Positions 38,238 through 49,653 of a DNA stretch of 64,000 nucleotides are shown one piece after another. The notes below the pieces were generated by a model, which was not told where the DNA came from, searched no databases, and saw nothing but the letters and a program-made list of their open reading frames with translations. The position numbers and the translations under genes were made by a program. Each line of letters opens with the position of its first letter. Position 1 is the stretch's first letter. The DNA comes from Candidatus Koribacter versatilis Ellin345 (GTDB lineage Bacteria > Acidobacteriota > Terriglobia > Terriglobales > Acidobacteriaceae), in NCBI RefSeq assembly GCF_000014005.1, contig NC_008009.1, positions 2,480,001 to 2,544,000 on the forward strand, read 5' to 3'.

Positions 38238-38885
38238 TTAGAACAGATCGATTACGTCCACGACGAAGAACGTACTCGGGTCGTATACCAGCACGTAACC
38301 GTCAACGTAACCGTACTGGAAGCCTTCTGGAGCGGGGCCGAGATATCCGACCATTTCCACCGGAACCGGCTCAATGCGGGTCTGGACCGCCACTGGAATT
38401 ACTTCCTGGCGGACAATCGTCACATTGCGCGTGTGCGTGGTGGTTACGTTCTTGTAGTGTTCGCGCAGCTTCTCGCGGGCATCGCCCTTGAACTGATAGT
38501 GGGCGCTGCGATCGTGTTCGCTGACTTCCTTCTTGTCACCTTCGCGTTTTTCACCTTCGCGCTTCGCCTGGTCCTGGTCCGACTGCGGCATCTTCGCCTT
38601 GTCGGCATCACGCTTTTTGTCGGCGTCAGTCTTGGCTTCCGGCTTAGCTTCGGGGTTGCGGACACCAGGTTCCTGGTCGGACTGCGGCAGCTTCGACTCG
38701 CGCGCGTCGTTCTTATCGCGCTTCTCGTCGACCTTTGCCTTGTCAGGCGTGGCGGCCTTGGCCTTAGGCGCCGGTGCCTTCTCTTCAGTAGTCTTCGGGG
38801 TTTCGTCCTGCTTCTCTGGCTGTTGAGCGATGGCAGGAATTGCCAGCGCCGCGGCTAACGTGAGTGCTACGAAATGGAACTTCAT
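38238..38885 (-). CDS. Secreted, highly charged protein with DUF1236-like C-terminus
   Basis: 215 residues from ATG 38885 (GGAGGG upstream). Signal peptide MKFHFVALTLAAALAIPAIAQ, then about 110 residues of Lys/Glu/Asp/Ala-rich low-complexity sequence with two SKLPQSDQE/AKMPQSDQD repeats. A C-terminal domain follows (RQEVIPVAVQTRIEPVPVEM, FQYGYVDGYVLVYDPSTFFV) resembling DUF1236. Probably periplasmic or surface-exposed, with an extended charged linker. Function unknown. Confidence 0.75.
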   Translation of the reverse strand: MKFHFVALTLAAALAIPAIAQQPEKQDETPKTTEEKAPAPKAKAATPDKAKVDEKRDKNDARESKLPQSDQEPGVRNPEAKPEAKTDADKKRDADKAKMPQSDQDQAKREGEKREGDKKEVSEHDRSAHYQFKGDAREKLREHYKNVTTTHTRNVTIVRQEVIPVAVQTRIEPVPVEMVGYLGPAPEGFQYGYVDGYVLVYDPSTFFVVDVIDLF

Positions 38886-39050
38886 GTTTCGGTTTCCCTC
38901 CCTGAGAAAATCGGAACAGAAGTGACGTACCAAGATAGATGCAGGCTCTTTCGTGCGTGCTGTGCCGCATATCAGTGGGGAATTTGCACTGAGGAAGGGC
39001 AACCTGCTCACCTCGGAGCAGAGCGGCTGAAGCTTGTTTGGATGGCCTGC

Positions 39051-39410
39051 TTGTATCACGGCAGCGCTATCTGCGTTTCCACGCTTTGTATCAGGGCAGC
39101 GCGATCCGCGTTTGCGCGCTTTTGTATCAGGGCAGGGCGATCCGCGTTTGCACGCGTTGTATCAGGGGCAGCGCGATCCGCGTTCGCACGCCCTGAGTCA
39201 GGGCAGCGCCGACCCACGTTTGCACGCTTTGTATCAGGGGCAGCGCGATCCGCGTTCGCACGCTCTGAGTCAGGGCAGCGCCGACCCACGTTTGCGCGCT
39301 TTGTATCAGGGCAGCGCGATCCGCCGTTCGCACGCTCTGAGTCAGGGCAGCGCCGACCCACGTTTGCGCGCTTTGTATCAGGGCAGCGCTTCAGCGCTGC
39401 CGAAAAGCGC
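39051..39410. repeat. Tandem minisatellite of 35-36 bp units, about 9.5 copies
   Basis: Units begin TTGTATCAGGGCAGCGCGAT or, alternating in the second half, CTGAGTCAGGGCAGCGCCGA, making a 72-bp higher-order repeat from about 39158. The last, incomplete unit ends in the hairpin GGCAGCGCTTCAGCGCTGCC (39390-39409). The period of 36 leaves several frames open, but none has a start, ribosome binding site or signal that would make it a convincing gene. No unique spacers, so it is not CRISPR. It fills the gap between the DUF1236-like gene and murA. Confidence 0.85.
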
Positions 39411-39422
39411 CCCAAAAGAAAA

Positions 39423-39438
39423 AGGGGCTTTAGCCCCT
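39423..39438 (-). terminator. Intrinsic terminator of murA
   Basis: AGGGGC, loop TTTA, GCCCCT. On the minus strand it is followed by TTTTTCTTTT. It sits 8 bp from the murA stop and next to the tandem repeat array. Confidence 0.7.
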
Positions 39439-39445
39439 GCGACGC

Positions 39446-40747
39446 TTAACTCACCGCCACCGGCGACGCTTTCTTCGGAAACAATTCCCCGATGCGCTTG
39501 ATCTCCGCCCCGAGACCGCGCAACTTTTCTTCGATGTGCTCGTAGCCGCGATCAATGTGATACACGCGATCAATGATCGTCTCGCCCTCCGCGACAAGCG
39601 CCGCCAGCACCAGTGACGCCGAAGCTCGCAGATCGCTGGCCAGCACAGCCGCGCCACTCAACGGCGTCTTGCCACGGACAATCGCTCGCCGGCCTTCGAT
39701 CTTGATGTTCGCGCCCATGCGCACCAGTTCCTGCGCGTGCATGAAGCGGTTCTCGAATATGTTCTCGACCACCACCGATGCTCCCTCGCACTGCGTCGCC
39801 AGCGCCATGTATTGCGCCTGCATGTCGGTAGGGAAGCCGGGGTATTCTTCTGTGCTCGCGTCGCCCGGCTTCAGCGTACCCTCGCTCATCACCCGGACGG
39901 AATCGCCATTGCTGCGAATCTTCACGCCGTTTTCTTCGAGCTTGGCCAACAGCGCGCCGAGGTGCGATGGATCGCAGTTCTGCACCATCAAGTCCCCGCC
40001 CGTAAGCGCGCCGGCAATGATGAATGTGCCGGCCTCAATGCGATCGGGAATGATGCGGTGCTTCGCTCCATGGAGTTTTTCAACGCCGGTGATCTTCAGC
40101 GTCGACGTTCCAATGCCCTCGATCTTCGCGCCCATCTTTACCAGCAGGTGTGCGAGGTCCGTGACTTCGGGTTCGCGGGCGCAGTTCTCCATCACCGTCT
40201 CGCCGTCGGCGAGCGTCGCCGCCATCAGCAGGTCTTCCGTGCCTGTCACGGTGATTTTTTCGAAGACGATGTGGTTGCCCTTGAGGCGCGTGGCCTTCGC
40301 CTTGATGTAACCGTGCTCCTGCGTGATCTCGGCGCCGAGCTTCTCCAGCCCTTTGATGTGAAGATCGATGGGGCGCGCCCCAATCGCGCATCCGCCGGGC
40401 AAGGAAACGCGTGCCTCGCCGGTGCGAGCTACGAGCGGCCCGAGCACCAGCGTCGAGGCGCGCATGGTTTTCACCAGCTCGTAGGAAGCCTCAGGGTTGA
40501 CGAGATTGCGGCAGCAAAGCGTGGTGCGGTGATGCGCGCGTCCATAGCCCAGTTCGACTTCCGCGCCCATCGCTTGCAGCAGATTGCGCTCGGTGATGAT
40601 GTCGCGTACCTGCGGAATATTTTCGAGGATGACGGGTTCTTCAGTAAGCAGGGCAGCCGCCATCGCGGGCAGGGCTGCGTTTTTCGCGCCACTTACACGC
40701 ACATTGCCAAGCAGCGGAGTCCCGCCGCGAATTACGAACTTATCCAT
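39446..40747 (-). CDS. murA: UDP-N-acetylglucosamine 1-carboxyvinyltransferase
   Basis: 433 residues, EPSP synthase fold. SGAKNAALPAMAAAL (Lys 22) binds UDP-GlcNAc. The catalytic Cys 120 is in SLPGGCAIGARPIDLH, the Cys form that is fosfomycin-sensitive. DMQAQYMALATQCEGASVV lies in the C-terminal domain. First committed step of peptidoglycan synthesis, in the cytoplasm. A monocistronic unit, divergent from the Gly-rich exported protein gene. Confidence 0.95.
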   Translation of the reverse strand: MDKFVIRGGTPLLGNVRVSGAKNAALPAMAAALLTEEPVILENIPQVRDIITERNLLQAMGAEVELGYGRAHHRTTLCCRNLVNPEASYELVKTMRASTLVLGPLVARTGEARVSLPGGCAIGARPIDLHIKGLEKLGAEITQEHGYIKAKATRLKGNHIVFEKITVTGTEDLLMAATLADGETVMENCAREPEVTDLAHLLVKMGAKIEGIGTSTLKITGVEKLHGAKHRIIPDRIEAGTFIIAGALTGGDLMVQNCDPSHLGALLAKLEENGVKIRSNGDSVRVMSEGTLKPGDASTEEYPGFPTDMQAQYMALATQCEGASVVVENIFENRFMHAQELVRMGANIKIEGRRAIVRGKTPLSGAAVLASDLRASASLVLAALVAEGETIIDRVYHIDRGYEHIEEKLRGLGAEIKRIGELFPKKASPVAVS

Positions 40748-46491: not shown

Positions 46492-46521
46492 TGTATCAGG
46501 GCAGCGCTTCAGCGCTGCCGA
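46492..46521. repeat. Solitary copy of the 36-bp array end unit, with hairpin
   Basis: TTGTATCAGGGCAGCGCTTC, continuing into AGCGCTGCCGA: identical to the last unit of the tandem array at 39377-39411. It contains the 8-bp stem GGCAGCGC/GCGCTGCC with loop TTCA. It lies 10 bp downstream of the stop at 46482 and may act as a terminator or processing site. Confidence 0.75.
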
Positions 46522-48783: not shown

Positions 48784-49653
48784 CCCCTTATTAGAGAGGT
48801 TTTGATTTTACTTTGACAGACTACGGCGTGTGCGCCGTAGTCTGCGCTTTTGCGGCGGGTGGCCCGTCCTACCATTTCGAGATTTTTGGGTGCCCCATTC
48901 TAGCGATTCACGCTTTTGGTGAATCGTTAGGGTGGGGCTTTTATCAAACGCCAGAAACACGAAGCCCGTAGTCAACCGGGGCTCTAAAACGAAATCCAGC
49001 GGGGGAAAACCGGGGACAGGAAAACCGGGAAGGAAAACCAGGGGAAAACCGGGGACAGACCGGACGTTTCCTAGTTTTCGCTCCCGCATCGGTGTAGCAT
49101 GCTGGTGTTTGGCGAACTGGGTATCTACTGGTAACGCTTATGAACCCCGGGTGGCTCCCGGGGTTTAGTCATTTTGGACAAGGCCGGGCGCCCCATGTCT
49201 CGCGATTTTCGAGACGTGGGAAACCACGAACCTCCGTCCCGAACAAACACTCCCAACTCCCCATCCCCCTCCGTATCTCTGTGCCTCTGTGTTGAATAGG
49301 ATCTAATCCCAAACCACTCTCAAAATTTCACCCCCAAAACTCTAAAAAATCCCCCTCCAAACGCAGTTCCCAGCGTCTCAAACGCGTTTTATCCCCCTTT
49401 TTCCCCCAATTTTCACCCTCTAATCACACCCATCCGTGCTCCCAATCACATCCCGCTACGACCAAATCGTGTAACGTCTCTCTCGCAACACGATCTTTGA
49501 AATCCCCAACCCTCCGTGTCTCCGCGTCTCCGTGGTAGATGTAACTCCTACGGACAGAGGAATTTACCTATAACTCCTACGCCGAGAGGAATTTGCAGAG
49601 ATTGCATAGCCTAAGCTGCTGAAAACACAAGAGGGTGGGGAGGGGGTACACCC
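48784..49653. other. Long gene-free region rich in hairpins and short repeats
   Basis: No convincing gene in 870 bp. Contents: a 12-bp stem (CAGACTACGGCG/CGCCGTAGTCTG, 48817-48844); a 12-13-bp imperfect stem around 48900-48930 (CTAGCGATTCAC/GTGAATCGTTAG); four imperfect GGAAAACCGGGGA-like repeats (49003-49060); a 9-bp stem (AACCCCGGG/CCCGGGGTT, 49143-49165); two copies of a CCTCCGTGTCTCCG-type repeat (49269-49295, 49511-49537); and a 29-bp tandem duplication (49542-49599). A pyrimidine-rich stretch covers about 49230-49460. Confidence 0.6.
49542..49599. repeat. 29-bp tandem duplication
   Basis: TAACTCCTACGGACAGAGGA (from 49542) is followed by TAACTCCTACGCCGAGAGGA (from 49571), each continuing ATTT. 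About 83 percent identical by eye, head to tail, about 55 bp upstream of the gene at 49654. Confidence 0.7.

Follow-up and report, generated by a model that had tools for sequence, protein, structure and literature searches.

One short, putatively mobile element predicts the place, side and border of a minisatellite at about one third of its copies in a single genome, that of Candidatus Koribacter versatilis Ellin345. The element is REP-like and carries two hairpins, and we consider it plausible, at somewhat under an even chance, that a tandem array beside it is a by-product formed on its 5' side. A single contig of 5,650,368 bases makes up the genome, and the window, the whole stretch of 64,000 nucleotides analysed here, spans positions 2480001-2544000 and holds such an array next to murA. 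The features are numbered from the first base of the window.

39051-39389, + strand: tandem array of 36-bp units (TRF: period 36, 9.5 copies)
39375-39384, + strand: 5' tag GTATCAGGGC of the complete terminal element, with CTTT just before it
39382-39401, + strand: hairpin 1, GGCAGCGC-TTCA-GCGCTGCC, with an 8-bp stem
39423-39438, + strand: hairpin 2, AGGGGC-TTTA-GCCCCT, followed on the - strand by TTTTCTTTTG and intrinsic-terminator-like for murA
46493-46519, + strand: solitary copy of the tag and hairpin 1, with no recognisable hairpin 2
39446-40747, - strand: murA (EPSP synthase family), the 3' neighbour of the array, given as context
38238-38888, - strand: neighbour gene with no Pfam family, found beside murA in the congener as well, given as context

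The first-pass annotation had described a 36-bp minisatellite of about 9.5 units with a 72-bp pattern, and TRF confirmed both, calling the longer period at 39074-39389 (4.4 copies, 92% matches). The two alternating unit types that it placed in the second half, TTGTATC.. and CTGAGTC.., do take turns from ~39159 onward. A unit consists of TTGTATCAGGGCAGCGC plus a spacer with a CGCTT end, and the units in the window are cut where the left stem arm ends, most of them at 15 nt. Strict tags, defined as the exact tag or one letter off, start at 39053, 39088, 39124, 39159, 39231, 39303 and 39375. The 17-mer TTGTATCAGGGCAGCGC had 9 matches in the window at ≤3 mismatches vs 0.25 expected from shuffles, and 38 exact matches in the whole genome, where the reversed pattern had none. 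As reported earlier, no base separates the last unit from the solitary copy, whose start for this comparison is 46491; its 8-bp stem is closed by a TTCA loop. That hairpin unit had been thought to close the structure, but hairpin 2 at ~39423-39438 belongs to the same element. The terminal element folds better than its shuffles (z -2.47) but two stretches inside the array do not (z 0.23 and 0.09), so the hairpin sits in the terminal copy. The window units repeat whole, with a 72-bp dimer and no unique spacers, and do not constitute a CRISPR array. Two more short tandem repeats, at 49004-49046 and 49316-49361, are unrelated to the tag.

The complete element consists of the tag GTATCAGGGC, hairpin 1, whose stem covaries between copies, a spacer of 18-24 nt and hairpin 2 (GGGGC-TTTA-GCCCC). 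A genome search that left the stem free (GTATCAGGGC-N4-CTTNAG-N4-GCC) found 135 copies at ≤2 mismatches, 67 forward and 68 reverse, vs none for the reversed-pattern control, which bears out the earlier suggestion linking the array to a dispersed hairpin element. As a short palindrome that is dispersed and in high copy number, the element is of REP type. Across six genomes, 48 distinct sequences of hairpin 1 keep the four free stem pairs in 45, 43, 46 and 47 cases, exceeding the maximum of 500 shuffles at each pair (44, 36, 40 and 38). Hairpin 2 was found 18-24 nt past hairpin 1 in 94/120 copies (≤1 mismatch), mostly as GGGGCTTTAGCCCC or GGGGCTTCAGCCCC, with an exact pattern match in 77/94. Flanks were examined over 303,073 bases around the listed copies, and 35 of the 135 places lie outside the listed set. 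The gene calls, which put 30/94 copies inside an ORF call and 6 at an ORF edge, were too crude for conclusions on how copies are oriented relative to genes. A search of a plasmid collection gave no match.

Arrays were counted from 133 copies at ≤3 mismatches, less 13 that had 2-3 mismatches and 26 that lacked hairpin 2, leaving 94. The main ratio further omits nine of these (seven in the transposase cluster and two of a 136-bp whole-element duplication) and refers to 85 copies. Among them a TRF array abuts the tag (5') side in 28/85 and the hairpin 2 (3') side in 0/85 (sign test, 7e-9). A looser abutting rule on the same 85 copies gave 37 at 5' vs 0 at 3'. Before the exclusion, the 94 copies had abutting arrays at 5' in 36 and at 3' in 6; five of the six 3'-side arrays lie in the transposase cluster and one in the 136-bp whole-element duplication. 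At random anchors ≥600 nt from any copy, arrays occurred on the two sides in 5/2000 and 8/2000 cases. The strict tag likewise recurs within 75 nt on the 5' side in 35/85 copies and on the 3' side in 2/85. Both orientations bear arrays, (+) 24/47 and (-) 21/47, and by orientation and chromosome half the counts are 12/25, 7/18, 12/22 and 14/29, with dnaA at base 408.

Array periods range from 12 to 59 nt, whole-element duplications aside, and a dimeric higher-order period like the 72-bp one of the window was found at eight loci. Because 36 is a multiple of 3, several frames are open across the window array, and one could suppose that it is a coding repeat read as protein. We regard this as very improbable: the periods of 36 arrays divide 10/14/12 among classes 0/1/2 modulo 3, strict unit lengths divide 27/40/20, with no bias to multiples of 3 in either set, and the three array-spanning frames examined match no Pfam family. 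The earlier caution that open frames here could mislead gene callers was thus well placed, and the window array should not be annotated as a gene.

Units vary by locus; all retain the tag, and the point at which the hairpin is lost varies. Of 87 units compared with their own element, 7 cease to resemble it at 7 nt, 64 at 8-21 nt and 16 at 22-40 nt, and none resembles it past 40 nt, so the units are element prefixes cut before hairpin 2, plus a spacer. Three pyrimidines precede the strict tag in 46/50 single, 29/35 outermost, 48/52 inner and 34/35 terminal cases, against a background rate of 0.118 in the DNA around the listed copies. Among 20 arrays holding ≥3 strict tags, the sequence flanking the outermost tag differs from the units in 15/20 and resembles them in 5/20, a test by which 98% of random 12-mers would also differ. 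An array whose flank differs therefore starts at a tag, as a single element does.

Another conceivable origin is serial insertion, in which new copies would repeatedly land next to an old one at the same pyrimidine site, while deletions reduce the older copies to upstream remnants of the tag. Some arrays do have units of unlike length and content, e.g. at 3731148 and 4943453, and complete elements stand in tandem at 77047-77208. However, the 12-mers before inner tags share ≥9/12 letters in 14/20 arrays, and inner units that are usually near copies of one another are not expected from independent insertions; nor was a remnant of hairpin 2 detected in any counted unit. We consider this origin unlikely.

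The genome has four matches to PF01797. One of these genes, at 1900206-1900889 on the - strand, scored 106.7 bits with NF047646 (REP_Tyr_transpos; cut-off 80), and HVH and YIAKNP stretches are seen in its translation. The gene is bracketed by an inverted element pair with tandem copies at both sides, so that a search for a REP-associated (RAYT) transposase, proposed at the outset, was successful. The copies bracket a RAYT-type gene, and the transposase belongs to the REP-associated family. It shares the Y1 transposase domain (PF01797) with IS200/IS605, which strand-specific placement of the element also fits, and differs from that group in that NF033573 (transpos_IS200) stays at 42.4 bits, under its cut-off of 55, while NF047646 is above cut-off.

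Among 20 best-homolog loci in this genome and its relatives, inverted copies (≤1 mismatch) bracket the gene in 7/20, namely in this genome and six relatives. These cover the seven best-scoring genomes except G029, where copies around the transposase match only at 4 mismatches. At the 10/20 homolog loci without element copies the homologs are weaker, with 39-50% identity where listed. A second set, independent of the first and made up of 18 named loci (≤3 mismatches), had 7 bracketed, 7 one-sided and 4 with no copies. At L229 (both sides) and L237 (one side), in genomes G026 and G013, a hairpin with the same core carries another tag, TTGAAAGGGC. The occurrence of TTGAAAGGGC hairpins at weaker homologs suggests that tag and transposase change together. 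Genome G035 holds 75 exact-pattern copies yet no transposase match at E≤0.001, which speaks against the link between the two.

The tag strand was C-rich in far flanks (500-1450 nt) at 65/72 independent loci in this genome, and the same placement was seen in the congener (26/30), G047 (19/21), G035 (10/10) and G033 (8/10); G005 had 4/10. The GC skew tracks element orientation whichever direction the neighbouring ORF runs. A replichore bias was considered as the source of this pattern and rejected, since the sign of the skew flips within one replichore, with dnaA at 408. The strand bias of the copies and the site without an element in the congener are indirect signs of mobility.

That side and border are fixed, whatever the orientation, points towards a tag-reading activity, for which the transposase is the obvious candidate. 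We propose that this HUH-type enzyme with one tyrosine would recognise the tag and hairpin 1 in single-stranded DNA and, judging from sequence patterns, cut immediately ahead of the tag. The 3' end thus freed could then be lengthened into hairpin 1 to a variable extent, or be joined to other DNA, and rejoining at the tag would leave a truncated unit upstream of the intact element. With two units present, slippage or unequal exchange might enlarge and homogenise the array, yielding dimers like the 72-bp one. That the transposase itself builds minisatellites by laying down truncated tagged units, through repeated cutting before the tag and short copying, is a more specific claim that we hold to be somewhat unlikely. 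If it is true, a large share of the intergenic minisatellites of this genome would be the products of one enzyme, with fixed direction and borders.

The main rival to the by-product reading is replication slippage at hairpin 1, where the polymerase would stall, the new strand slip to a nearby short match, and flank and left part of the element be duplicated; the repeats would expand by slippage later and the transposase merely spread the element. It would account for units that end inside hairpin 1 or soon after and never in hairpin 2, and for the five of 20 arrays that include flank. The latter also weigh against a by-product of the element, because a unit-like flank would be expected from simple duplication that breaks in the flank. 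At 4694054 one unit seems, by eye, to hold flank sequence, and slippage or unequal exchange typically produces dimeric periods. Slippage gives no reason, however, why arrays should be restricted to the tag side (28/85 vs 0/85), and both orientations bear arrays in each half of the chromosome, with the border at a tag in 15/20 arrays. Given the one orientation that the elements share relative to local GC skew, a past effect of fork polarity may nevertheless have played a part. We take slippage as the origin to be possible though doubtful, and later amplification by slippage may well have occurred under either reading.

The element pattern was present in 27/80 related genomes. The congener has 30 copies, with an abutting array at 5' in 4/30 and at 3' in 0/30. 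In relatives outside the genus, arrays abut the 5' side in 3/80 copies and the 3' side in 1/80 (also counted at 5'), counts that are to be read knowing that draft assemblies may lose arrays. Arrays are thus rare in relatives that have the transposase, as slippage would allow, and their small number where the transposase is bracketed (3/80 outside the genus; 4/30 in the congener) is a point against the by-product reading. The congener lacks a full close homolog of the transposase; of its nearest pieces, one matches at 31% and the other, of 48 residues and close to a copy, at 60%. Its murA is 91% identical and has the same neighbour gene, with no element or array in between, and the difference at this locus is a gain here or a loss in the congener. 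Other relatives (L103, L127 and the listed places of G062) have many close inverted pairs, ~107-146 nt apart and REPIN-like. This genome has mostly single copies with arrays, unlike those pairs.

Selection for the array itself, as protein-binding sites or as a transcribed repeat RNA controlling neighbouring genes, was also weighed. The tag is kept while the remaining unit varies, and hairpin 2 is terminator-like on the - strand, both of which would suit a selected function. Outside the tag, however, units are wholly different between loci, and the array is absent at the same locus of the congener. The repeat RNA suggested by the first-pass annotation gained no support: no promoter-like site was found in 38850-39500, the two internal stretches folded showed no excess over chance, and the one Rfam match was below threshold. 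We judge a selected array improbable. The murA terminator named in the same annotation is hairpin 2 of the element and in that sense part of a mobile element; the terminator-like score itself stands, and since hairpin 2 scores so on the - strand, with TTTTCTTTTG after it, it may also end murA transcripts.

The Rfam candidate was the Acido-Lenti-1 RNA (RF01687), a motif for which the portion of PMC2864571 consulted gives the name and taxa. It scored 26.4 bits over hairpin 1, below the gathering score of 37, and was rejected; at the gathering score, none of the 20 sources holding element copies had a match. Elsewhere in the genome RF01687 exceeded the gathering score in at least 11 places, with 150 of 1166 candidates scored. 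One such place, 5475883-5475928, has element copies in a tandem cluster ~110 bases away.

The origin of bacterial minisatellites is usually put down to chance slippage, and the role of the REP-associated tyrosine transposase family after domestication is still debated. The present case bears on how one transposase-linked element may seed bacterial minisatellites, and if the transposase drives array growth, its enzyme family would have a directional DNA-amplifying activity.

The terminal inverted repeats (TIRs) of ORF1552 in K. versatilis form a repeated family, according to the parts of Di Nocera et al. 2013 (PMC3733652) consulted, and by its description rather than by comparison of sequences this family is very probably the same element. 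In the same parts of that paper, TIRtrons (TIRYT) likewise have inverted copies flanking a tyrosine transposase gene, and a figure legend names double-palindromic TIRs, like our two-hairpin element; one-sided arrays of truncated units are not described in them. REP and REPIN sequences with RAYTs, as treated in the sections seen of Bertels and Rainey 2011 (PMC3116915), are alike in their short high-copy palindromes, transposase and inverted pairs. P. fluorescens SBW25 has REPs and REPINs in tandem clusters (PMC3116915), the units being, as far as those sections describe them, either REPINs that include flanks and are almost identical or REPs at even spacing. Unlike in those tandems, most of our units are hairpin-less, hold the tag only, are locus-specific and occur on a single side. 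The 5' tag also differs, being GTATCAGGGC here, where the REP system has GTAG at the stem foot; GTAG was not found directly 5' of our stem, where GTATCAG stands instead. BIMEs and the substrates of TnpAREP share a tag and hairpin beside a Y1 transposase, and the excerpts of PMC8266576 at hand do not describe a second hairpin or tag arrays. According to the same excerpts, TnpAREP cuts on the 5' or the 3' side of a REP, frequently at CT, and replication may start from the 3'-OH as a primer (PMC8266576). A literature search found no account of one-sided tag arrays in the open literature, with subscription papers largely outside its reach.

An upstream unit with ..CACAGGCTGCTGAAAAACTC.. or close variants recurs before six copies of the element in this study (L036, L044, L050, L051, L087 and L093) and looks as if it travels with the element.
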